Below are positions 3,001 through 28,682 of a DNA stretch of 30,811 nucleotides, in pieces. Location: positions 1-30,811 of the IMG/VR virus record IMGVR_UViG_3300025132_000019. The stretch is one strand, 5' to 3'. A program made the translations under genes and the position numbers. Below the pieces are notes generated by a model. The model did no database searches and was not told the DNA's origin. It saw only the letters and a list, made by a program, of their open reading frames with translations. This DNA comes from a virus. Each line of letters starts with the position of its first letter. Positions within the stretch are counted from its first letter, which is position 1.

Positions 3001-4077
3001 AGTTAAAGATAAATCTCTTGCAGTAGCCCATTTTGTAGCTGTATCTGCATTTCCTGTCAGATTTCCTGTAACGTTACCTTGTAAATTTCTATGTACTGTA
3101 GAAGGTAAACTTAATGTTATAGTTTGTCCACCTCCTGCAGTATTTATTTGGTTAGTAGTTCCGTCAACGCTTAATGTTTGAGAGTTAAGAACAACTGCAC
3201 CGCTACCTGAGTCTGTAGTAAAATCTAAGTCACTAGCATTATTTAAACTTTTTACATAAGCAGTTGTAGCTACTTTTGTAGAATCGTCACTTGATGACTG
3301 AGTTGTGGCTGTTGAGCCGTCAGGTAAAACAACACCTGATGAAGGAAATTTTAAACTTAATCCTTGCCCTGATGCGTTAGACTCTATTTCATTAACAGTA
3401 CCTGTTACTGCAAATACTTGAGTATTTAAATTAACCGCACCTGTTCCAGTATCACCGCTAAAATCTAAATCACTAGCCGCATCTAAAGTATCAACGTATG
3501 CAGTAGTCGCAACCTTAGTCGAGTTGTCTCCTGCAGACTGAGTAACTGCAGTTGTAGCTGTGTTTATTGTTCCGTGTAAGTCTCCAGAAAATGTAGCTCC
3601 TGTATAAGTTCCACTAATAGTTACACTATTTGGTAAACCAATTTGTAATTGTTGACCACTTGCTGCGGTTTCAATTTCATTACTTGTTCCAACTATAGCT
3701 AGAACCTGGGAGTCTAAATCGACTGCTCCTGTATTCGTTCCGTCTGAAAAATCTAAGTCTTGACTAGTTACGTGAGTATCTACATAGTCTTTTACTGCAG
3801 CCGAAGTAGGTAGGGAAGTATCATTATCATTTGAAGATATGCCGTCTGCCTCATTAACTAATTTATTGATAGTCACAGAGTGAGCAGTTGCTTTAAAATT
3901 AGCAAACTCTAACGTTCCTGTAGACTTGAGGTCTCCGCCTGTGTTTAAATATACACCTGAATTATTCCCTAGCCCATCCGACAATTGCTGTAGAGTAGCT
4001 GTTAAAATATCATTATCTGTTACTTTAATTAAACTCTTATATGTTAAACTTATTTTATTTCCTGTTAGTGTACTCAT
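1..4077 (-). CDS. Tail fibre/receptor-binding protein with C-terminal S74 chaperone (5' part; continues at right end)
   Basis: The ATG is at 4077 and the frame is open to base 1. It continues across the circular junction to a stop at 30596-30598, giving 1,397 aa. The N-terminal third carries three related units, each beginning DLDF and containing a GAV-[DNV]-L pattern (near residues 106, 203 and 284). Adjacent segments repeat STKVATTAYV. The middle is a long run of Gly/Ser/Thr/Asn-rich beta repeats with recurring ATFAG and MRI motifs, as in trimeric beta-helical fibres. The C-terminus has SDYRLKEDL, the peptidase S74 intramolecular chaperone signature, with the predicted Ser/Lys dyad at S1305 and K1310. 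In this family the C-terminal domain trimerises the fibre and is then released autocatalytically, here about 93 residues. The host-receptor role is inferred. It follows the head-tail adaptor and precedes the lysis genes, the usual place for a fibre. Confidence 0.9.
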   Translation of the reverse strand, partial: MSTLTGNKISLTYKSLIKVTDNDILTATLQQLSDGLGNNSGVYLNTGGDLKSTGTLEFANFKATAHSVTINKLVNEADGISSNDNDTSLPTSAAVKDYVDTHVTSQDLDFSDGTNTGAVDLDSQVLAIVGTSNEIETAASGQQLQIGLPNSVTISGTYTGATFSGDLHGTINTATTAVTQSAGDNSTKVATTAYVDTLDAASDLDFSGDTGTGAVNLNTQVFAVTGTVNEIESNASGQGLSLKFPSSGVVLPDGSTATTQSSSDDSTKVATTAYVKSLNNASDLDFTTDSGSGAVVLNSQTLSVDGTTNQINTAGGGQTITLSLPSTVHRNLQGNVTGNLTGNADTATKWATARDLSLTSEATATLSSVDGSGNVSGAVTLLNSAVTGKVLTGLPTPASGNIQASDSILEAFGKLQSQVSSISNGLIFKGSWDADTNTPTLTSGGGEADSGTTTGQATNKLIQTGQNFNTTVTVGDKVINQVDGTTALVTNIDSNTQLTLNADIMLSGEAYTIDASPFIQQGQYYVVNYGGTTNLNGTANWSVGDWVIADADNRWSKLDHSQVDGQGTIGNLAKFTASNVIGDSIVSESGTALTVTGSLTTTLGASVTGDLAINTNKFTVNATNGNTVVAGTVLVGSGGFSHLNPKITADTDTDAPISIVINNQQNGSSAEAKFVVSTYGNSWHMGMGSSTHTYGNDLTFTTDASTSNAPKLRIATNGNATFAGSVGIGGAPDNILTLTGTAGDTHQRFKEASTTIGFIGGANGIISGHNGKLAVRAESGLVLSSQGNAADVVISSGNSTFGGNITISKSNTAELQLIDTTNNVSLLFGADDNNTFLRNSSGLMLFQTNGGTTALTLSGANATFAGTITSTGLNTFKNSVAASTDLDSSVLKLQNTLDGGSGIEFINSVAGKSKISFGVESTGAGTDDTFLAFSTSANTTMSERMRIDSSGNTTFAGAVGINTNPQFGRELLVKGEIAAFAQDSGDNQLLMSASSTQTNISATFGSAGSYVPMQFETGGAVRMQINASGKVGINETNDARTQLEVKATTSSRNTVTRILTLNANGDSIQPYEPFGTGIIFEGFDYAGGGGTSTSRDYAYLDARIETSGSTPVDFTSRLVFATNSGGSSTTTPTTKMVISGSGKVGIGEEAPGTLLSLKGGADTSIITLKCTKNDSSWAGNTIGAMYFYSEDGSGPGAGIRGSINYFATSSSGGDTAMSFKTGDNTERMRIDNSGNVLISKQSLNISSVGTEFRANGQSFFTCDGDNSIDLNRLTNEGGIAIFRQAGTVVGNISVTSSATTYNTSSDYRLKEDLQDFAGLDMVSKIPVYDFKWKVDDSRSYGVLAHELEEVLPQAVDGEK

Positions 4078-4147
4078 TTTTTATTTTTTTTAGATAAACT
4101 AATAACTTTTTAAAGTTTGTGTTTTTTATATTATATTCCTTTTTCAT
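4055..4147 (-). CDS. Possible 30-aa basic small protein between adaptor and fibre
   Basis: A short ORF starts with an ATG that overlaps the TGA stop of the upstream adaptor gene (ATGA) and ends 23 nt inside the fibre gene. The predicted 30-aa peptide is very rich in Lys and Asn (starts MKKEYN), with no recognisable domain. Junctions like these occur between real genes throughout this genome. Alternatively it may only couple translation of the adaptor and fibre, or be chance, since AT-rich leaders often encode Lys/Asn peptides. Confidence 0.35.
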   Translation of the reverse strand: MKKEYNIKNTNFKKLLVYLKKIKNEYTNRK

Positions 4148-4659
4148 AATACCCAACCTGTCCAATTAGCCTCTGTATCTGGGTACATATCATCATTACT
4201 ATTACTATAGTACTCAGGAAATTTGGTTGAAGCGTTATAATTCATATAGTCTATAAATCGTCTAGTATAAAAATCTGCATAGTCTCTATACTTTTGAACT
4301 AGAAAATCTATTTCTTCTTTAGTAGGTAAATCAGCATTTTCTGATCTATGCCTGTAAGTACCTCCTTGTTTTACTGCATAATTACTAAAGGGCAAATAAT
4401 CAACCATTGCAAACATTATTAATTGTGGCTGCACGTAATCGTTAACCAAAGTATAATAATTTGGATTTGCTTGTTGAGTAAGAGTTCCTGCAGTAATTAA
4501 AGCAGAAATTTTATTGTAAAGCTCAGTCCCTAAATAATTTTGTATGTGCATCTGTTGAGCTATTTTAATAAAGGGTAGGAGTTTGTCTGTGTCTACCGAC
4601 CCGTCAATTATCGAGTTTCTTACTAAGTCTGTTCTTGATATAAATAATGCTGTAGCCAT
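4144..4659 (-). CDS. Putative head-tail connector/adaptor protein
   Basis: A 171-aa protein, mostly alpha-helical by inspection. It contains the segment IKIAQQMHIQNYLGTELY (residues about 32-49), followed by a helix-rich region and an aromatic, Asn/Tyr-rich C-terminus. The pattern of helices, a QNYLGT-like turn and a later YRDYADFYTRR helix resembles the head-tail connector family (DUF6712-like) found in Bacteroidota phages, which docks on the portal in the neck. The gene follows the portal after only 4 nt, consistent with this. The family assignment is from memory of sequence style and was not searched; the neck role is inference. Confidence 0.6.
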   Translation of the reverse strand: MATALFISRTDLVRNSIIDGSVDTDKLLPFIKIAQQMHIQNYLGTELYNKISALITAGTLTQQANPNYYTLVNDYVQPQLIMFAMVDYLPFSNYAVKQGGTYRHRSENADLPTKEEIDFLVQKYRDYADFYTRRFIDYMNYNASTKFPEYYSNSNDDMYPDTEANWTGWVL

Positions 4660-4663
4660 TTTC

Positions 4664-6622
4664 TTATTTTCTATAGTTAGGGTCTAAACTCCACCAATCA
4701 TTTTTAGGTTGAGCTACTTGAGCAACTTCAGGCACGTTTGTTTCAATTTGTGCTTCTTTCCTTAAACTAGGGTCTAAAGCCGCAATTTTACGTCTAGCCT
4801 CAGCTACTGTTATTCTTTCGTTGTTTTTTCTTAAATATGTTCTACGTTCCCAATAATGTTGACAATTAACCCCTCCCTTATAAAGCCATAAATTATAATA
4901 ATCTGAACCTCCTGGGCCTAAGCCTGGATTTGCATTACTTTCTTTATTTAAGTCTTCCATTCTATAGACTTTTTTTGCAGCCCACATTTTACGACAAAAT
5001 TCTCGTTCTGGATTATTACTTCCATAATATCTATAACGTACTTTTATTATACTAGTGTCTTGAGAGCTTTTTTTATTTGGAGTACTAATAGGTACACTAG
5101 CTAAATCCGTAGCAAATTTTAATGAATGATTTAATAACTCATCGTATTCATTAGCAGGTCTACTATCTATTAATTCGTAGCCTTCCATTTCTTCGTCTTC
5201 TCCTTTGTTTTCTAACTCGCTTAATATAGCCTTAGTTAGTTCTTCATTTACATTTAAAGGAACACAATTTGGAACTTCTTTTCCGTCTTTCATTTTAGTT
5301 CCTATCATTTCATAACCAGGCTCACAAGGTTTTTTTAAATCAGTATGGTCTTGACAAGGCATATAATAAGTTTTACCATCAACTTCGTGTTCGTGATAAC
5401 CCATACATCCTATTTCGTTAGCCTTACTTTCTGCCTCTTCTATAGTTTCATACGCCACCTTGCCATCTATAACTTTTGAAAACGAAAACTTTTGACCTGT
5501 TTCTTCTTCAATTTGTTCTTTGTTTGTAGCGTTAGTCAAATCATTAAATTCTAGAGGTTGTAACGTTTTGAAATATAAATTTAAAACTACTTTATTGTAG
5601 GCTAATATATCGTCAAAAGCGTTTAGTAATAATTGTTGAAAAGGTCTAATAACTGTGTTGTCCATTAAAGTACTAGCAGTTACAATTTCTTCTGCATTAT
5701 TTCCAAAGCCTGTCATATCTTTAATACCAAATAAAATTGGACTTGTAACTCTGTGAGCTACCATTATCTTTTTCATAGACTCAGTAGAAAGAAACTCATA
5801 TTGTTGAGGTGCGTCTGATAATTGTACTGCCTCCATAGTTGCAGCAGAATCTGCGTTGTCATTAAACGCAAGTATAAAACGTCCTGCATTACTTGTTCCT
5901 TGATACTTAGCCGCAATCTTTTGTTCTATAATATTTCTCTCTTCTTCTGTAGGAGTCCCATTGTTAAAATTAATTAACATAGAAGGAGCTAGGCCATTCA
6001 TAATGTTGTTTAAATGGTAGTTAGCTATTTCCTCTTCTAATTCTGCATATTGTATTCCTCCTTGATAATCTACAGGACTATAGTATTTAAATCCTGCTCT
6101 ATATGGTTTAATATAAAGTATTTCTATTTCATTTCTAGAAGTACCAAATACAGGTATTCTTTCTAGTTCGTCTCCTTGTTGGTATTCAGACCAATCGTAA
6201 AAATAATAATACGCAGGAATTTCTCCTTCTTCATTACATTTTTCAGCCCTTAATGTTTCTATAGGAACGTGCTCAACTTGAGCTATTCTACTCCTGTCTT
6301 CACTATATATAACTTGTATAGCACATTGACCCATAAGCTTTAAATCACTTGCTAGTTTCATTTGCATATCCTCAGAAATCATAGATTTCATTTCTGCATA
6401 TTCTCCAGGTTTTCTATTTGAGTCTGTAGCGTCTAAGTAACGGCCTACTATCATTTGTGAGATTCCGTTAATTAAAGCGTTGTTAGTAGCTGAGCCGTTA
6501 TATCTGTCTATTAAAAATTGGAAATAGTTATTGTCTGCTCCGTAAGATACCCATTCTTGATTTGATACTTCTTTTACTTCAGGAGTAGTATATGTACTTA
6601 ATTGTAAAAAGTTTACTTTCAT
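4664..6622 (-). CDS. Portal protein with Cys/His-rich C-terminal extension
   Basis: A 652-aa protein. Residues 1 to about 360 look like a phage portal: N-terminal helices, a long beta-rich wing, then KIMVAHRVTSPILFGI (285-300) and a helix with VIRPFQQ, the stem/crown pattern of HK97-type portals. The portal forms the dodecameric DNA channel at the capsid vertex. Residues about 375-460 form a linker with clustered Cys and His (C406, H410, H412, C423, H426, C433, C453). Residues about 525-600 form a second module with REFC, a Gly-rich turn and NCQHYW, then charged helices. These extensions make it larger than a typical 400-500-aa portal and suggest fusion of a minor-head-like or metal-binding module. 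It follows the 139-aa gene by 1 nt. Unusually, it lies downstream of the capsid gene. Confidence 0.8.
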   Translation of the reverse strand: MKVNFLQLSTYTTPEVKEVSNQEWVSYGADNNYFQFLIDRYNGSATNNALINGISQMIVGRYLDATDSNRKPGEYAEMKSMISEDMQMKLASDLKLMGQCAIQVIYSEDRSRIAQVEHVPIETLRAEKCNEEGEIPAYYYFYDWSEYQQGDELERIPVFGTSRNEIEILYIKPYRAGFKYYSPVDYQGGIQYAELEEEIANYHLNNIMNGLAPSMLINFNNGTPTEEERNIIEQKIAAKYQGTSNAGRFILAFNDNADSAATMEAVQLSDAPQQYEFLSTESMKKIMVAHRVTSPILFGIKDMTGFGNNAEEIVTASTLMDNTVIRPFQQLLLNAFDDILAYNKVVLNLYFKTLQPLEFNDLTNATNKEQIEEETGQKFSFSKVIDGKVAYETIEEAESKANEIGCMGYHEHEVDGKTYYMPCQDHTDLKKPCEPGYEMIGTKMKDGKEVPNCVPLNVNEELTKAILSELENKGEDEEMEGYELIDSRPANEYDELLNHSLKFATDLASVPISTPNKKSSQDTSIIKVRYRYYGSNNPEREFCRKMWAAKKVYRMEDLNKESNANPGLGPGGSDYYNLWLYKGGVNCQHYWERRTYLRKNNERITVAEARRKIAALDPSLRKEAQIETNVPEVAQVAQPKNDWWSLDPNYRK

Positions 6623-7043: not shown

Positions 7044-7052
7044 TTACTTGTT

Positions 7053-7066
7053 TAATAGTATAACGT
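7053..7066 (-). promoter_or_regulatory. Degenerate copy of the ACGTTATATWAGTA upstream motif
   Basis: The minus strand reads ACGTTATACTATTA, matching 11 of 14 positions of the motif found before three other operon-leading genes. It lies about 10 nt before the ATG at 7043 and just after an intrinsic terminator, where a new promoter would be expected. It is the weakest of the four copies. Confidence 0.4.
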
Positions 7067-7104
7067 AATAATTTCAGTTTTTGCATAATAAAATTAGGAT
7101 AAAG

Positions 7105-7125
7105 AAAAAGGGCTCGAAAGCCCTT
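7105..7125 (-). terminator. Intrinsic terminator after the tail-tube gene
   Basis: On the minus strand a perfect 7-bp stem (AAGGGCT/AGCCCTT) encloses a TTCG tetraloop and runs into a T-rich tract. It lies 27 nt after the stop of the tail-tube gene and before the next start at 7043, so it fits a rho-independent terminator for capsid and tail-tube transcripts. Confidence 0.85.
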
Positions 7126-7151
7126 AATCTAAACTAAACACAGAAAAATTC

Positions 7152-7682: not shown

Positions 7683-7697
7683 AATTTATATTTTTTT

Positions 7698-7736
7698 TAA
7701 AAAAAAAGGGTAAGTAGGTTGTACCCCACCTACCCT
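7698..7736 (-). terminator. Intrinsic terminator after the major capsid gene
   Basis: On the minus strand an AGGGT...ACCCT outer stem and an AGGT/ACCT inner stem with a bulge form a hairpin, followed by about ten T residues. It begins just after the capsid stop at 7760 and ends before the tail-tube start at 7682. It may attenuate rather than block read-through, since the tail-tube gene has no obvious separate promoter. Confidence 0.75.
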
Positions 7737-7759
7737 AATTCTTAGATTAATTTAATTTA

Positions 7760-11621: not shown

Positions 11622-12222
11622 TTATTAATAGTTTTTTAATTTTTAATAATTTTACTCCTGCAGAAATTTCTGAATTTAGATTGTCTTTAATTTTTTCTTT
11701 AGGCCTTTCTTCACGATCTAGAAAAAACCCTTCTATACTGAATCCTTTAACTTCTCCACTTTTCACAAAGTCTTGCCATATCTCGTCATTATTAACTTTT
11801 ACAGCTCCCATCCAAGTTCCTACAGGAACGTTCATTCCATATAAAGCAGTCTTGTCTTTTTCCTTGTCTTCTACTATCCAGGATTCGACTAGTGTTAGCC
11901 CATCTATATCAAACTTATGTTCTAGTGTAGCATTGTTTTGTTTTCCGTTTTGGAGAAATAACTCACTAGCTTTTTTTACAGTTTCTTTTGAGAAGTATAT
12001 ATAATACTCCTCTTTTCCTTCTTTTCTATAAATAGTTTTATTAGGAATTAATAAAGCTCCCATTAGGATTTTTTTGTCATCGTCAATGGACTTTAGCTTT
12101 ATTTCTTTTTGGTCGTTTAAGGCTACGAAGTTTTCTTCTATAGCAGGACTCTCTACTATACTAATTGCATCGATACCTGCGTACTCATCGTCTTCGTCTA
12201 TTATTAATTCTACTATTTTCAT
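11599..12222 (-). CDS. XkdF-like prohead serine protease
   Basis: A 207-aa protein with the features of phage prohead proteases of the XkdF type. After an IDAISIVESPAIEENF lead (17-32) comes a beta domain with NATLEHKFD (His102, candidate catalytic), then VPVGTWMGAVKV (133-143) and GEVKGFSIEGFF (156-167), where Ser162 is the candidate nucleophile. Such proteases cleave scaffold and the capsid N-terminus during maturation. The C-terminal tail (about 170-207) is basic and probably self-processed or capsid-binding. It heads the head module, preceding the scaffold and capsid genes, and has the 14-bp upstream motif directly before its ATG. Confidence 0.85.
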   Translation of the reverse strand: MKIVELIIDEDDEYAGIDAISIVESPAIEENFVALNDQKEIKLKSIDDDKKILMGALLIPNKTIYRKEGKEEYYIYFSKETVKKASELFLQNGKQNNATLEHKFDIDGLTLVESWIVEDKEKDKTALYGMNVPVGTWMGAVKVNNDEIWQDFVKSGEVKGFSIEGFFLDREERPKEKIKDNLNSEISAGVKLLKIKKLLINANQKKN

Positions 12223-12235
12223 ACTTATATAACGT
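12222..12235 (-). promoter_or_regulatory. ACGTTATATWAGTA motif abutting the protease start codon
   Basis: The minus strand reads ACGTTATATAAGTA, with its final A being the first base of the ATG at 12222. The 16-base string AACGTTATATAAGTAT is identical to that at 19122-19137, before the tail-chaperone gene. The location at the start of the head module fits a phage-specific promoter or an unusual translation-initiation element. Confidence 0.6.
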
Positions 12236-19121: not shown

Positions 19122-19122
19122 A

Positions 19123-19136
19123 TACTTATATAACGT
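19123..19136 (-). promoter_or_regulatory. ACGTTATATWAGTA motif upstream of the tail chaperone
   Basis: The minus strand reads ACGTTATATAAGTA, separated from the ATG at 19121 by one base. It follows the intrinsic terminator at 19156-19184 within 20 nt, where a new transcript would have to start. The 16-base extended string matches that before the protease exactly. Confidence 0.6.
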
Positions 19137-19155
19137 TAATTTTAAAAATTTTTAC

Positions 19156-19184
19156 AAAAAAAAAGGGCAGACTTTCATCTACCC
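19156..19184 (-). terminator. Intrinsic terminator of the small-gene cassette
   Basis: On the minus strand a 7-bp stem (GGGTAGA/TCTGCCC, one G-T wobble) encloses a 6-nt loop and is followed by nine consecutive T residues. It lies after the stop of the 54-aa gene at 19207 and before the tail module, separating the small-gene cassette from the tail operon. Confidence 0.88.
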
Positions 19185-19206
19185 TAATTTAAACAACTTA
19201 TCTAAA

Positions 19207-20330: not shown

Positions 20331-20365
20331 AATGAAATAAAATTACAAAAAGTTATCCACATTTC

Positions 20366-21900: not shown

Positions 21901-21905
21901 CACGC

Positions 21906-21919
21906 TACTAATATAACGT
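21906..21919 (-). promoter_or_regulatory. ACGTTATATWAGTA motif upstream of terS
   Basis: The minus strand reads ACGTTATATTAGTA, one mismatch from the copies before the tail chaperone and the protease. It lies 5 nt before the ATG at 21900 and in the short gap after the DnaA-like gene, at the boundary between early and packaging genes. Confidence 0.55.
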
Positions 21920-21933
21920 AAAAATTTGAAGTT

Positions 21934-22359
21934 TTAAATACTGTTTATAATACTATCTTTTTTTTGTAGTTCTTTTTCTGTAAGTACATCTACTATTTCT
22001 ACAACTTGTTCTATAGAGTCTATATTTCTAAAGTTCTTAATTTTTTCAATAATCATTAACATTTCTTCATTTGATATTGTAGTCTGTTCTATAATTCTTT
22101 GCCACTTAATAAACTCAGGCCTTCTAGACTTGATTTCATCAAACATATTAATTCTATATAATACTATAGAATGGTCTGCAGATTTTCCTTTAGACTTGTA
22201 GAAGTTAGCTATACTTGTTAGCTTTTTATTTTTATATGTTCGCATTATGTAATCAAATAGAGCTCTTGCGTCTACGTGCTTTTGGGTTCTTCGATTCTCG
22301 AAAATATTAATTTGTGTTAAACTTATAACTAAGTTTGCTATTCTATTGTATTCTCTCAT
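21934..22359 (-). CDS. DnaA domain-IV-like DNA-binding protein
   Basis: A 141-aa helical protein. Residues 25-77 (QKHVDARALFDYIMR, LTSIANFYKSKG, ADHSIVLYRIN) match the layout of the DnaA C-terminal DNA-binding domain, including the signature near A61-Y68 like ADH[ST].V[LI]. There is no AAA+ domain, so it would act as a stand-alone duplex DNA binder, perhaps at a phage origin or as a regulator. It overlaps the methyltransferase stop by 4 nt and ends just before the terS upstream motif, closing the early region. Confidence 0.72.
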   Translation of the reverse strand: MREYNRIANLVISLTQINIFENRRTQKHVDARALFDYIMRTYKNKKLTSIANFYKSKGKSADHSIVLYRINMFDEIKSRRPEFIKWQRIIEQTTISNEEMLMIIEKIKNFRNIDSIEQVVEIVDVLTEKELQKKDSIINSI

Positions 22360-23219
22360 ATTACTTGTTTTATTTTTTTCGCTACTGCTTCCACAACGTT
22401 AACAGTTACGGCATTTCCACACATTTTATATCTTTGGCTGTCAGAAATTTCTCCTAATTCTTTTCCTGTCTTAGTCCAATTATCTGGAAACCCTTGTAAC
22501 CTTTCACATTCTACAGGAGTTAATCTTCTTATTTTGTTTTGTATGACAGCTAATTCACCACCAGAATCTAATGTTTGTGCATCGAGTTCACGTTCAATAA
22601 TGTAACTTCCGTTTCCTCCTGCTTCGTATCTTGTTGTGAGGGTACAGGTATTTGCTTGTTGTCCTTGTATGTCATTAACCTGTCTGTTATTTTCTGTGAT
22701 AGGAAATATTTGTTTTCCACTTCCTGCTCCAAGACATCCGACAAGGTAGATTCTCTCTCTATTTTGGGGTAGAAACCACTTTGTATTAAGCAGTTGCCAC
22801 TCAAGTCTATAACCCCCAATGTTTGTAAAGGCTTGGATAATAGCCCAAAAGTCTTCGCCAGAGTTTGAGGAGAAAGTTCCTTTAACATTTTCCCAGATAA
22901 AAAAACTTGGTCTGCATTCTTTGATAAGCCTAATTGCTTCGGTAATAAGACTTGATCTTTCCCCACCCATTCCTTTTCTTTTTCCTGCCAGGCTAAAGTC
23001 TTGACAAGGACTTCCGAAAGTGATAATGTCGATTCTTGGCAAGTCCCTTCCTCGAACATCTGTAACTGATTTGACATAAGTACTGTTTTTAAAATTATGT
23101 TTATATACGTCTATTGCATACTTGTCTATTTCTGAAAAGTAAGTGTGCTTTATATTAAATACTTTTTTTAGCCCTAAACTAAAACCTCCGATTCCACTAA
23201 ACAAATCTAAATGAATCAT
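22356..23219 (-). CDS. C5 cytosine-specific DNA methyltransferase
   Basis: A 287-aa enzyme with the motifs of m5C methyltransferases in order: I, DLFSGIGGFS (5-14), SAM binding; IV, GSPCQDFS (69-76), catalytic Cys72; VI, WENV (109-112); VIII, PQNRERIYLVG (151-161); a variable target-recognition region (about 165-230); IX, RLTPVECERLQGFP (232-245); X, YKMCGNAV (264-271). It transfers methyl from SAM to cytosine C5, probably protecting phage DNA from host restriction, since no partner nuclease is evident. The target-recognition region is short, so the site may be short. It overlaps both neighbours by 4 nt. Confidence 0.95.
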   Translation of the reverse strand: MIHLDLFSGIGGFSLGLKKVFNIKHTYFSEIDKYAIDVYKHNFKNSTYVKSVTDVRGRDLPRIDIITFGSPCQDFSLAGKRKGMGGERSSLITEAIRLIKECRPSFFIWENVKGTFSSNSGEDFWAIIQAFTNIGGYRLEWQLLNTKWFLPQNRERIYLVGCLGAGSGKQIFPITENNRQVNDIQGQQANTCTLTTRYEAGGNGSYIIERELDAQTLDSGGELAVIQNKIRRLTPVECERLQGFPDNWTKTGKELGEISDSQRYKMCGNAVTVNVVEAVAKKIKQVI

Positions 23220-25120: not shown

Positions 25121-25274
25121 CTCTTTTAAATTTAAAATTATTTAAGGCATTTTTTCTTTCTTCACACCCGCAACTTTCATAGCCAAGCCAATCTAGTACT
25201 ATTTTATTTACTAACCATTTAATACCTGTCCATTTAAAAATGAACTCTAGTTTATCCCCAATTTTTAGATTCAT
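25113..25274 (-). CDS. Hypothetical protein, 53 aa
   Basis: A 53-aa ORF starting MNLKIGDKLEFIFKWTGI, with an aromatic-rich amphipathic segment (WLVNKIVLDWLGYES), a CGC motif and a basic C-terminus. It overlaps the sigma-like gene by 23 nt and the next gene by 8 nt. Related CGC-containing fragments are common beside phage replication genes, but I cannot name a family. Translation looks plausible because of the tight overlaps. Confidence 0.55.
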   Translation of the reverse strand: MNLKIGDKLEFIFKWTGIKWLVNKIVLDWLGYESCGCEERKNALNNFKFKRDE

Positions 25275-25830
25275 ATAATTGTTTTATTTGTAGTCTTATA
25301 TTTTTTACAGTATTGTATAAAGAGTAATAAGAAATATTAGTGTCTCTACTTAACTGACTAATACTTTTGTTGTTTAAAAAAACCTCCTCAAAAACTTTAC
25401 GTTGGTAAAAATTAAACATTTTAGTTTTATCGTATTCCTCTAGTTTAGGATTATTCAGATCAGTAAGCTCTAAATAGTCATCGTGTAAAAACCATTCTTG
25501 TATAGCCCTGTAGTTATTTAAGTCATCTACTTCGTTATAACTTTCTTCAGCAGGTAAATAATCTAAATTATCTAGACTTACAACTTTTACTCTTTTTTCT
25601 GCTCTTTTTAAATTCCTAAACATATTGTATAGAGTCAAGTAAACAAAATAAAAGTTAATTTCTTTTTCATTATACATTATAGATTTATTATGTTTTTTTA
25701 AATAAGTGTCTATTTGAATGTACATTTCCTGAATCAAATCTTTAGCGGTATCAATATTACAACCCCAGGATTTTAAATAGTTATGCCAAATTCTTTCGTG
25801 CTTAACTAGTTCTATTATTGACTCTTCCAT
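25252..25830 (-). CDS. Sigma-70-like transcription factor
   Basis: A 192-aa protein with the two domains of a small sigma factor. The region-2-like part (about 25-80) has AKDLIQEMYIQIDTYL followed by a basic helix (RNLKRAEKR). An acidic linker (about 95-135) follows. The region-4-like HTH is ISQLSRDTNISYYSLYNTV (157-175) and a basic end (RLQIKQ). By family knowledge it would redirect host RNA polymerase to phage promoters. The 14-bp motif before terS, the tail chaperone and the protease is a candidate target. It lies in the early region just after the helicase gene, suitable for a delayed-early regulator of late genes. Confidence 0.75.
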   Translation of the reverse strand: MEESIIELVKHERIWHNYLKSWGCNIDTAKDLIQEMYIQIDTYLKKHNKSIMYNEKEINFYFVYLTLYNMFRNLKRAEKRVKVVSLDNLDYLPAEESYNEVDDLNNYRAIQEWFLHDDYLELTDLNNPKLEEYDKTKMFNFYQRKVFEEVFLNNKSISQLSRDTNISYYSLYNTVKNIRLQIKQLYESKNWG

Positions 25831-25855: not shown

Positions 25856-26755
25856 TTAAAATGGTTGAACTATTTTTTTTAGTATGGAAATATTGTCTAC
25901 ACTAAAGCCTACATTATTACGCAAAGCTTTTAGTCTAATTGGCTCTTCTATGTTAGTAGGTCGGCCTCCTGTCTCTGTCTCTTTTACCTTTCTGACGTGA
26001 ATCATACTATACATAAATTCTGTAGGGTGTTGAATATATCTATGAACCACTAAGAAATCGTCAGCTCTATTCACAAACTTACCCCCTCCCTCTACGTCTG
26101 CGGCATTTGGAGGAATTGGATGACCTGCGTATTCGTGATCTATTCTGTGAGTTATTCTCAAAGCATTTGTGTTTGCGTGAGTGTTAACCCATACTGCTAT
26201 ATTATTTTTCTTAGCAAATATTCTCAGTTCAGTTGTAGCCTGATAGTCGTACTCGTGACCACCTACTGACCCAATTAATTTAGGGTCTTTAATTAAAGAA
26301 TTGTAAGGGTCAATAAGTAAACCTTGATAGTCCCAAGCATCCTTAATTACTTTACATAAATCTAGTAATTCTTTATAAGTATAAAGTCTAGTAGAATCTA
26401 TAATTTTAAAATGAGTGTAAATAAAATCTATATGTTTTTTATATTGTTTTTCTGGAACATCTTGTATAGGTCTTTCTTCCAAAAACTCTACAAGTTTTCT
26501 AATTATAGAATAAGCTTCATTTTCAGAACTAAAGATTAACCATTTTAATTGATGCTTGATAGCATAAGCTAACATTAAGTAAAGAACAATTGTAGTTTTT
26601 CCTGTATTAGAATGTCCTAAAATAATATTAAAAGAACTAGGCTTAAATCTAAAGTAAGTATCTATTTCAGGAAGTCCTAAAGTTAGTCCCTCTTTAATTT
26701 TTCCTGTTCGTATGTCTTGTAAATGTGCAGTAACTTTCTCATAGTTTATTAGCAT
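25856..26755 (-). CDS. DnaB-type replicative helicase/RecA-fold ATPase
   Basis: A 299-aa RecA-fold ATPase. Walker A is GHSNTGKTT (47-55), with a catalytic Glu in FSSENE (E80), Walker B LLIDPYN (146-152), and a Q/H-type sensor in WVNTHANTN (189-197). The C-terminal KFVNRADDFLVVHR (226-239) and HVRKVKETETGGRP resemble DnaB-family hexameric helicases. It lacks the N-terminal DnaB domain and any primase, so it resembles a stripped helicase core that needs host or phage loading factors. It would unwind DNA at the fork. It follows a terminator and precedes the sigma-like gene. Confidence 0.85.
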   Translation of the reverse strand: MLINYEKVTAHLQDIRTGKIKEGLTLGLPEIDTYFRFKPSSFNIILGHSNTGKTTIVLYLMLAYAIKHQLKWLIFSSENEAYSIIRKLVEFLEERPIQDVPEKQYKKHIDFIYTHFKIIDSTRLYTYKELLDLCKVIKDAWDYQGLLIDPYNSLIKDPKLIGSVGGHEYDYQATTELRIFAKKNNIAVWVNTHANTNALRITHRIDHEYAGHPIPPNAADVEGGGKFVNRADDFLVVHRYIQHPTEFMYSMIHVRKVKETETGGRPTNIEEPIRLKALRNNVGFSVDNISILKKIVQPF

Positions 26756-26780
26756 TGTCTAAATGTAGGTATTATAAGTT

Positions 26781-26809
26781 AAAAAAAAAAGGGAGCGTTA
26801 ACTCCCCTT
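26781..26809 (-). terminator. Intrinsic terminator before the helicase gene
   Basis: On the minus strand a GGGAG/CTCCC stem (26802-26806 and 26791-26795, extendable with A-T pairs) encloses a 6-nt loop and is followed by ten T residues. It begins 3 nt after the stop of the 94-aa gene. The helicase 26 nt beyond must rely on read-through or a weak promoter; a TACATTTA element (one base off the -7 consensus) lies between. Confidence 0.85.
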
Positions 26810-26811
26810 TG

Positions 26812-27096
26812 TTAAAATGGTAAGTCTCCTTTTGCTTCTGCTCTAGGTAAGTGAGCATTTTTTGCATCGTATGATTTGTTTTTCGGAATACTTCTCTTAG
26901 CATAGAACTTGTTAGGGTCTGCCTTTTTAGTCATTACGTCTAATACTATTTTCTGCTCTCCTGACTCTTTAGCCTTTTTTAGCATATTCATTGTTTCTGT
27001 TACATCTAATAAAATGTGTAGTTTAATAAATTCATACTTAGATTTGTAAGGAGCTACGCAGTTCCAATACTCTGTTTCAAAATTGTTATTTGCCAT
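26812..27096 (-). CDS. Small protein with SSB-like C-terminal tail, 94 aa
   Basis: A 94-aa protein starting MANNNFETEYWNCVAPYKSK, then a helical middle (LDVTETMNMLKKAKESGEQK) and a Lys/Pro/Asn-rich linker ending GDLPF. The terminal D-L-P-F tail matches the acidic-hydrophobic tip by which bacterial SSB recruits replication and repair enzymes (usually DDIPF). The body is short and does not show an obvious OB fold, so it may be a helper of the preceding OB-like protein or an SSB-like mimic. It overlaps that gene by 11 nt and is followed by a terminator and the helicase, indicating a replication role. Confidence 0.65.
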   Translation of the reverse strand: MANNNFETEYWNCVAPYKSKYEFIKLHILLDVTETMNMLKKAKESGEQKIVLDVMTKKADPNKFYAKRSIPKNKSYDAKNAHLPRAEAKGDLPF

Positions 27097-27481
27097 TTGT
27101 TATCTGTTTTAGTTTGTTATAAAATAATTCAGTAGTTTCTAAAACCGTACTACTTTTTACGGCTGAATTGTTTGAATACAATAAAGAAGCAGAACGCAAA
27201 CACGACTGAAATTCTATTGAATCTTGTTGTGATGGGCTCTTGCTAAAAGTTTTTGTTTCTACTTTAGGTTTTCTTACTAGTCTTGCAGTATTGTATTTAG
27301 CATTACTAATTTCAAACTCTATTTCGTCTCCAACTTTTTTTTCAAATTGAGTTCTTGCTACTCCGTCCCACTCTTTGTTTTGGTAGAACTTAAAAGTCTG
27401 TCCTGTTGCAAACGTTACTGAATAGCATTGTTTTTCTAGGTAGTCTTGTTCTCGGTTAATAAATGTAATTTTTCCTGTCAT
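27086..27481 (-). CDS. Putative OB-fold/ssDNA-binding-like protein, 131 aa
   Basis: A 131-aa protein. The N-terminal ~70 residues are beta-rich (GKITFINREQDYLEKQC, FATGQTFKFYQNKEW, VGDEIEFEISNAK, TARLVRKPK), the layout of a small OB fold that may bind single-stranded DNA. The C-terminal half is Ser-rich then helical (ETTELFYNKLKQI). It directly precedes the DLPF-tailed protein and the helicase, so the three probably form a replication block. The OB assignment is an impression from strand spacing, not a confirmed family. Confidence 0.5.
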   Translation of the reverse strand: MTGKITFINREQDYLEKQCYSVTFATGQTFKFYQNKEWDGVARTQFEKKVGDEIEFEISNAKYNTARLVRKPKVETKTFSKSPSQQDSIEFQSCLRSASLLYSNNSAVKSSTVLETTELFYNKLKQITNGK

Positions 27482-27492
27482 TTTTTGTGTGT

Positions 27493-27624
27493 TTAATTAA
27501 TAAGCAGACTCTCTGCTCTTTCTTTTTTTATCGTTAATAATTCGTTTTCGTTTTCTAACTCTTGTACTTTTTTTTCAAGAGCTGTTATCCTTGCGTGAAG
27601 GTATGTTTTCTCTATTTGTGTCAT
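27493..27624 (-). CDS. Small coiled-coil protein, 43 aa
   Basis: A 43-aa ORF starting MTQIEKTYLHARITALEKK, with regular Leu/Ile heptads (VQELENENELL) that suggest a short coiled coil. It leads the replication unit, with a strong consensus promoter ending 4 nt before its ATG. Function unknown. It could be an assembly partner or simply the leader of the operon. Confidence 0.65.
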   Translation of the reverse strand: MTQIEKTYLHARITALEKKVQELENENELLTIKKERAESLLIN

Positions 27625-27628
27625 AAGA

Positions 27629-27658
27629 CAAATATAATAAAAATATTATATAAACAAA
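27629..27658 (-). promoter_or_regulatory. Consensus Bacteroidota promoter (TTTG N18 TAnnTTTG)
   Basis: The minus strand has TTTG at 27658-27655, 18 nt, then TATATTTG at 27636-27629, fitting the Bacteroidota vegetative promoter exactly. The ATG of the 43-aa gene begins 4 nt after the -7 box, so the transcript probably starts at or within a few bases of the start codon and may be nearly leaderless. The TTTG lies in the T-tract of the preceding terminator. Confidence 0.8.
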
Positions 27659-27691
27659 AAGGGAGCAAAGCCTAGCGACTACTACTCCCTT
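27655..27691 (-). terminator. Intrinsic terminator after the NinG-like gene
   Basis: On the minus strand a perfect 7-bp stem (AAGGGAG/CTCCCTT) encloses a 19-nt loop with a small internal TAG/CTA pairing and runs into TTTTTG. It follows the NinG-like stop at 27728 and precedes the consensus promoter that starts the replication unit. Its T-tract supplies the TTTG of that promoter. Confidence 0.8.
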
Positions 27692-27727: not shown

Positions 27728-28132
27728 TTAGTCTATATTGAAATTTTTGTTTAAAACTTTATAATGTTCTATTTTTTCCAAAAGCTCAGGAGTTGTAAAC
27801 TTTACAGTTTCTTTACTTTTTTGTAGTAGTTCTTCAGCTATATTGTAGCCATATTCTTTATTTAAATTTAAAGCATATTCATATTGACGACCCTGGGAAT
27901 GTACGTTACATCCGTAGCATTGAGGTCTGCAGTTGTCTTCTGACCAACGAGTTGAATAATATCTACGTGAAAGGAAATGTCCACATTGCATTGAGTCTTT
28001 GTAGTGTTTTACTCTTTCGCAAGTATAACATTTAACAAAGCCGTTGTGATCTGAATATTTGAGTCGTATGTACCTACTAAACTCTGCATCTAGTTTTTTA
28101 ACAATTTTGCTCCTAGATAATTTTTTTTTCAA
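27728..28132 (-). CDS. NinG-like recombination nuclease (Cys/His metal-binding)
   Basis: A 134-aa protein with a basic N-terminus (KKKLSRSKIVKKLDAEFSR) and metal-binding core: CYTC (35-38), MQCGHFLSRR (48-57), and CRPQCYGCN (68-76), then a helical YEYALNLNKEYGYN end. This Cys/His order with a CGHF...N..PQC..CN signature matches the NinG/Rap family of lambda, which processes recombination intermediates and forked DNA. The ORF begins with TTG (no near ATG). It lies directly downstream of the operator-like repeats, so it may be the first gene of the early transcript. Confidence 0.8.
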   Translation of the reverse strand: MKKKLSRSKIVKKLDAEFSRYIRLKYSDHNGFVKCYTCERVKHYKDSMQCGHFLSRRYYSTRWSEDNCRPQCYGCNVHSQGRQYEYALNLNKEYGYNIAEELLQKSKETVKFTTPELLEKIEHYKVLNKNFNID

Positions 28133-28182
28133 AATTTAGTTGGATTATATTATATTAATTTTATATTAATTAATAATATATT

Positions 28183-28230
28183 ATATAAGACTAATATTAA
28201 TATTAGACTAATATCATATAAGACTAATAT
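28183..28230. repeat. Three tandem 15-bp near-palindromes (operator- or iteron-like)
   Basis: The 15-mer ATAT[A/T]AGACTAATAT occurs at 28183-28197, 28200-28214 and 28216-28230, start spacings 17 and 16 bp. The middle copy is a perfect palindrome around one central base (7-bp arms, ATATTAG and CTAATAT); the other two each have one mismatch at the same position. The cluster fills an AT-rich gap between the holin and NinG-like genes. The regular spacing suggests cooperative binding of a dimeric protein, or replication iterons. Confidence 0.8.
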
Positions 28231-28235
28231 AATAA

Positions 28236-28682
28236 TTATTTTTGAGAAATGTTTTTAAATTTCTCAGCCCCTCTCGAACCAAAATAAGCTACATAGACGG
28301 TAATTAAAAGTGACTTGAGTAAATCTATCCAGCCTGAATCTACACCAAAGTTTATATCAAATCCGTCTAGCAGTATAAACAATATTAAAGAAATAGTTAA
28401 AAATATTAACGACAAAGGCCTTACGTTTTTAGCTAAACTAGAATCTGATTTATTGTCAGACTCCCACCTTTTAGTTATTTCTACTAGCTCGTTATTATCC
28501 ATTTCGAGTAGTTTTAAGGCAGTTTCTTTGTCTTGTGGAGGCATAGTATCGTCTTTAGTAATTAAGTTCTTTACAAGACCTAATAATCCTTTGTCAGGAA
28601 TGCTATTACTCAATGAAGAAAAAACTCCTCCTTTGCCTACTAAAAACTTACCTACCTTGGTTTCTTTGAACTTTTTTTTCAT
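28236..28682 (-). CDS. Holin, 3-TM (Holin_3TMs-like)
   Basis: A 148-aa protein with a basic N-terminus (MKKKFKETKVGKFLVGKGG). A helical segment ends in ETALKLLEMDNNELVEITK, then come hydrophobic stretches: VRPLSLIFLTISLILFILLD, and later LKSLLITVYVAYFGSRGAEK. The RPLS...YFG.RG pattern matches the Holin_3TMs family, which forms membrane holes releasing the amidase. It is the last gene of the lysis cassette; the preceding 42-aa gene overlaps it by 35 nt. It ends just before the operator-like repeats. Confidence 0.75.
   Translation of the reverse strand: MKKKFKETKVGKFLVGKGGVFSSLSNSIPDKGLLGLVKNLITKDDTMPPQDKETALKLLEMDNNELVEITKRWESDNKSDSSLAKNVRPLSLIFLTISLILFILLDGFDINFGVDSGWIDLLKSLLITVYVAYFGSRGAEKFKNISQK

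Follow-up and report, generated by a model that had tools for sequence, protein, structure and literature searches.

The closest known system is the replication origin of phage lambda (oriLambda), in which inverted-repeat iterons bind dimers of the O protein beside an AT-rich tract that opens, with four iterons in lambda and six in Stx phages (PMC7466680, PMC5043065). A comparable arrangement was found in the IMG/VR virus record IMGVR_UViG_3300025132_000019, analysed over its whole length of 30,811 nucleotides (nt; hereafter, the window), where the gap between the genes of a holin and a NinG/Rap-like endonuclease holds a tandem array of palindromic units. As in oriLambda, tandem inverted-repeat sites lie beside an AT-rich tract, the number of units varies between relatives, and the replication module uses a DnaB-type helicase. 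In contrast, the array is intergenic and upstream of NinG, a terminator and a promoter separate it from the replication operon, its units are nearly pure A/T and rewritten between lineages, and no homologue of O or P was recognised. The gap also resembles the iteron origins of plasmids (RK2, P1, F, pSC101), which combine a repeat array with an A+T-rich unwinding region and have replicon-specific repeats, but here the units are palindromic at 16-17 base pairs (bp), and no Rep protein was recognised. Furthermore, the gap shares with the CI/Cro-type operator arrays of phages the clustering of palindromic sites in non-coding DNA, although here no repressor or integrase was recognised, the array lies away from the early-operon promoter, and its association is with the replication module.

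Overall, the sequence comparisons give an even chance that the gap is the replication origin of this phage, or the core of it, in the manner of oriLambda. The gap carries true repeats, is conserved at a fixed place with lineage-specific rewriting, includes an A/T stretch under selection, is the stability minimum of the genome and is associated with the helicase module. No description of an array in the holin-NinG gap was found in the literature searches.

The palindrome array between holin and NinG

The elements of the locus are the following:

28133-28235, no strand: gap between holin and NinG, 103 bp, 9.7% GC
28183-28197, plus strand: array unit 1, ATATAAGACTAATAT, with one arm pair broken
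28200-28214, plus strand: array unit 2, ATATTAGACTAATAT, a perfect 7-1-7 palindrome whose arms pair fully around a single central base
28216-28230, plus strand: array unit 3, ATATAAGACTAATAT, with one arm pair broken
28140-28173, minus strand: conserved A/T element with the end sequence TAATCCAA (in relatives, TAATGCAA), seen in the alignment of relatives
27728-28132, minus strand: NinG/Rap-like endonuclease gene flanking the array, with a TTG start (Pfam NinG, 1.6e-11; phrog_5034, 2e-23)
28236-28682, minus strand: holin gene on the opposite flank (phrog_3427, 1.8e-14)

The three 15-bp palindromes at 16-17-bp spacing, one of them perfect, that an earlier note on this DNA had pointed out were confirmed, with a start-to-start pitch of 17 and then 16 bp. 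Shuffling the 103-bp gap with its dinucleotides kept gave three copies of a 15-mer with at most one mismatch in only 4 of 3,000 cases, and two exact copies in 17 of 3,000. Since the three-copy repeat is so rare in these shuffles, it reflects more than AT-richness. Palindromy alone was modest in the window (arms of at least 6/7, p=0.02). Moreover, these three were the only exact-class matches to the unit genome-wide, and degenerate units of 16-17 bp extend the array beyond them to about 28141. The autocorrelation of the arrays showed peaks at 5, 11 and 16-17 bp.

Nowhere in the genome is the duplex less stable than in the gap (4.5 standard deviations, the runner-up stretch reaching 3.0). By this measure it stands apart, as the earlier note had said in calling it the only AT-rich regulatory gap, but it is not the only regulatory one, since further promoter-bearing gaps exist. 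Among the features expected of an iteron origin, the gap has a tandem array of similar sites and, beside it, an easily melted AT-rich tract, the latter being shared by the gaps of array-free lineages.

Conservation in close relatives

A scan with NinG gathered 42 loci, the close relatives being those with 81-93% NinG identity, and 33 close relatives had an array in the equivalent holin-NinG gap. The repeat is therefore conserved together with its flanking genes, contrary to the lack of conservation that the earlier note had named as a refutation. In these gaps, 16-17-bp units of the form AATATAAGACTTATAT close with a conserved AATATAATGCAAG before NinG. Across the 20 records searched, the motif was limited to the holin-NinG gap, with a sole exception in the record of locus L011, and in L021 the array is still directly behind the holin, though an extra open reading frame (ORF) separates it from NinG. 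Between L004 and L005 the difference is one exact extra 16-bp unit in the latter. Palindromy reached significance in the window and in L007, L015, L021, L022 and L027, but in none of the other relatives. As most relatives have one or two clear palindromes per gap, the three-copy state is partly lineage-specific. The exact two-unit pattern gave no matches in IMG/VR, because the units are altered in relatives.

The best-conserved part of the alignment was not the palindromes of the earlier note but the A/T element next to NinG, with 91% identity across 13 relatives, compared with 61% for the fourfold sites of NinG (73% counting A/T sites only). This excess indicates that positions 28140-28173 are under selection, and the element is a candidate for an unwinding element, for the core of the NinG promoter, or for both. 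Its core pattern was found in 25 IMG/VR contigs, every one of them from the group of the window, and the 3' end occurred once per record, exclusively in that same group.

Distant lineages and association with the replication module

Tandem units were also found in the equivalent gap of distant relatives, with other sequences: TACTATATAGTA in L163, L144, L167 and L203, TACTCTAGAGTA in L170, and CTATAATAG in L200 and L222, further lineages having other arrays. Additionally, long polypyrimidine tracts (CTTTTTCTTTTC...) were seen upstream of NinG in L035, L116, L151, L198 and L225. The presence of an array tended to go with the helicase gene:

25856-26755, minus strand: DnaB_C-like helicase (profile matches and lineage comparison)

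In the first set of lineages, arrays were seen with the helicase of the window and none without it. The array metric of that set was re-applied to lineages fetched later with the helicase as query and was reached by 11 of 27 new lineages with the helicase, against none of 10 lineages without it (Fisher p=0.018). Taking all the lineages, which are not independent of each other, the figures were 23 of 43 and 0 of 10, respectively (p=0.003). On the NinG tree, absence of the helicase requires four changes, at least two of them forced by supported branches, and in the two helicase-free lineages tested an ERF protein and/or an AAA_25 ATPase replaces it. The closest contrast is that of L159 and L163, which share holins that are 92% identical and NinG proteins that are 89% identical, but the replication module of L159 has been replaced (3280-6061) and its gap lacks the palindrome array. 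The ORF at the place of the helicase in L159 looks, by eye, like another ATPase, unrelated to the helicase of the window.

Genome and transcription layout

The window is a complete genome of circular type of about 30.7 kb with a 99-bp terminal repeat, in which a 1430-codon tail gene continues across the ends, and all its convincing genes lie on the minus strand. The phage is a small marine one, and the promoter type suggests that its host is a member of the Bacteroidetes, as do the closest matches among cultured phages to terL, to NinG and to the helicase. A host search among genome contigs with the portal protein gave one weak match only, in a metagenome-assembled genome of Bacteroidetes. Besides, a gene for a C5 cytosine methyltransferase (22356-23219) was present in the window and in L025, and was not found in the other close relatives covering that place.

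The remaining features, all on the minus strand, are the following:

27655-27691, minus strand: intrinsic terminator behind NinG, a hairpin with a T run (z -3.5)
27629-27660, minus strand: Bacteroidetes-type promoter of the replication operon, TTTTTG-N18-TATATTTG (consensus match)
27493-27624, minus strand: conserved coiled-coil-like protein of 42-43 amino acids, first gene of the replication operon
27086-27481, minus strand: predicted OB-fold protein (AlphaFold pLDDT 82; weak fold matches, often to OB-fold proteins, none below E 0.001)
26812-27096, minus strand: small protein ending in DLPF, which resembles the C-terminal tip of SSB
25252-25830, minus strand: ECF-like sigma factor (supported jointly by alignment, by fold search and by weak matches of relatives to Sigma70_r2)
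21905-21919, 19122-19136, 12221-12235 and 7052-7066, minus strand: late promoter motif WACGTTATATWAGTA, with a variant at 7066

The earlier note had placed the gap between the lysis end and the early start, which is partly wrong: it lies between holin and NinG and not at the start of the replication operon, and the terminator and the operon promoter follow behind NinG. The hairpin and T run are kept in all relatives, the distant ones showing compensatory changes that preserve the pairing. More terminator-like hairpins, several conserved in relatives, were seen between gene blocks (26756-26811, 7044-7151, 7683-7759 and 19122-19206). The operon promoter, present throughout the group of the window, agrees with the Bacteroidetes consensus TTTG/TANNTTTG, including the G at -5 (PMC6847099). 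Its predicted start falls at the ATG in the window and in L007, and it was the only canonical promoter of this type with a fitting -33 element seen outside genes in the window. A scan for sigma-70 promoters did no better than chance, given the AT-richness of the genome.

The replication operon encodes, in order, a 43-amino-acid coiled-coil-like protein, the predicted OB-fold protein, the protein with the SSB-like tip, the helicase and the ECF-like sigma factor, a protein to which single-sequence search is almost blind. The coiled-coil-like protein of L024 (about 659-898) has an extra N-terminal part that is ribbon-helix-helix-like (NikA-like, 8e-4, below the cut-off). The late motif directly precedes the start codons of late genes, terS among them, in a leaderless-like manner, and is conserved in distant clades; the ECF-like sigma factor of the phage is likely its reader. 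The array units were also considered as copies of the core of this late promoter, which was rejected, as it holds for the first unit only, and in most relatives only.

The origin reading and its alternatives

If the gap is an origin, it would offer a dimeric initiator specific to the phage a tandem series of palindromic sites, made up of the units at 28183-28230 and of the degenerate ones that continue them. The bound initiator would bend the DNA and open the adjoining A/T element at 28140-28173. The DnaB-like helicase would then be loaded there, together with two other products of its operon, the OB-fold protein and the one with the DLPF tail.

Several observations weigh against this reading. 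Third-position GC skew showed no clear switch at the gap (the earlier note had proposed cumulative GC skew as a check for a nearby origin), and a pitch of 16-17 bp does not correspond to integral helical turns. None of the known initiators bearing a DNA-binding domain fit for this role turned up, and within the replication module no homologue of O or Rep was recognised. As for the association with the helicase, which rests on related lineages, 20 of the 43 lineages carrying it fail the array metric, some having an array elsewhere in the gap and some a polypyrimidine gap. A direct-repeat metric over the 600 bp upstream of NinG gave no separation of the lineages with and without the helicase (p=0.30), partly because of the polypyrimidine tracts, and palindrome counts separated them only in part (rank test p=0.001, Fisher p=0.10). 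Moreover, the gaps of helicase-free lineages are likewise the least stable stretches, so that AT-richness alone is unspecific, and the gap of L159 has its own 16-bp direct repeat at a lag of 24.

Regarding the binding protein, the earlier note had offered, besides a host protein, a DnaA domain-IV-like protein and the sigma-like protein. Of these two, the former is not a natural candidate, as no DnaA boxes (TTATNCACA) or DnaA-box-like sequence were found in the gap, and the latter, being ECF-sigma-like, more plausibly reads the separate late motif. The single perfect DnaA box of the window, TTATCCACA, lies at 20345-20353, just downstream of terL, and similar boxes occur near terL in L017, L018, L019 and L029, not in all relatives. 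The choice left by the earlier note between a repressor operator and origin iterons falls on the iterons, which remain the best reading. A classical operator of CI type is unlikely, because no CI-like repressor or integrase was recognised among the genes examined (some small ORFs fell outside the scan), and the gap is not at the early operon promoter, which is at 27629-27660. The earlier note had likewise seen no such repressor.

Among the alternatives, the array might serve as an operator or upstream activating array of the NinG unit, where a dimeric regulator on the palindromes would control a promoter in the A/T element (TATAAT-GCAA near the start codon), which we consider somewhat unlikely. 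The conserved TATAATGCAA does adjoin the start codon of the first gene, whether NinG or the extra ORF of L021 (ATG right after GCAA), the first unit, TTATATTAGTA, is the late-promoter core in most relatives, 3-6 nt behind the holin stop, and L163 has a TATATTTG box just before NinG, downstream of the array. However, no host-type -7 box is conserved in the gaps of the group to which the window belongs, NinG stands as the sole gene ahead of a terminator, and no repressor gene was recognised. This explanation also leaves aside the association of array and helicase and the loss of the array in L159. An array serving NinG alone would have no reason to depend on the helicase. Nevertheless, both functions could hold at once, as in lambda, where transcription helps the opening of the origin (PMC5043065).

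That an AT-rich non-coding gap merely grew by slippage, one 16-bp unit at a time and with no function in itself, is an unlikely explanation. The exact extra unit of L005, the variable unit number and the lack of significant palindromy in several relatives would fit it, but not an A/T element far better conserved than fourfold sites, a motif restricted to the holin-NinG gap, or arrays at a fixed place in lineages without a common repeat sequence.

Repeated terminase sites are known in phages, and the 99-bp terminal repeat of the assembly is what circularly permuted or concatemeric DNA would yield. A packaging initiation site (pac/cos type) bound by the small terminase is nonetheless very improbable here, given that terS and terL are 6 kb distant and that array-bearing and array-free lineages are distinguished by the helicase module, which is not known for terS.

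Finally, hairpins in the transcript acting in termination or processing between the lysis genes and NinG can be largely set aside, since some arrays fold well as RNA (z of about -4 to -5 in L027 and about -3.5 in L007) but in most relatives the folding does not exceed that of shuffled sequences (z +0.5 to -2.5), the GC stem and T run that mark the terminator behind NinG are missing from the gap, and no Rfam match was found.

Implications for this phage family

Returning to the origin, a broader and rather unlikely proposal is that phages of this Bacteroidetes-type family have their origin in a cassette of constant position. The palindromic sites in it would be rewritten in each lineage and swapped with the replication genes, and the initiator that recognises them would be of an undescribed kind, not a homologue of O, Rep or DnaA. 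The natural contrast between L159 and L163 makes the link between array and module directly testable. For lytic phages known only from metagenomes, origins are almost never located. If the reading is true, the gene order holin-array-NinG could be used to call the origin of many marine phages. The many natural array variants, each with its own replication module, could then be used directly to identify the initiator and to follow how it changes along with its sites.
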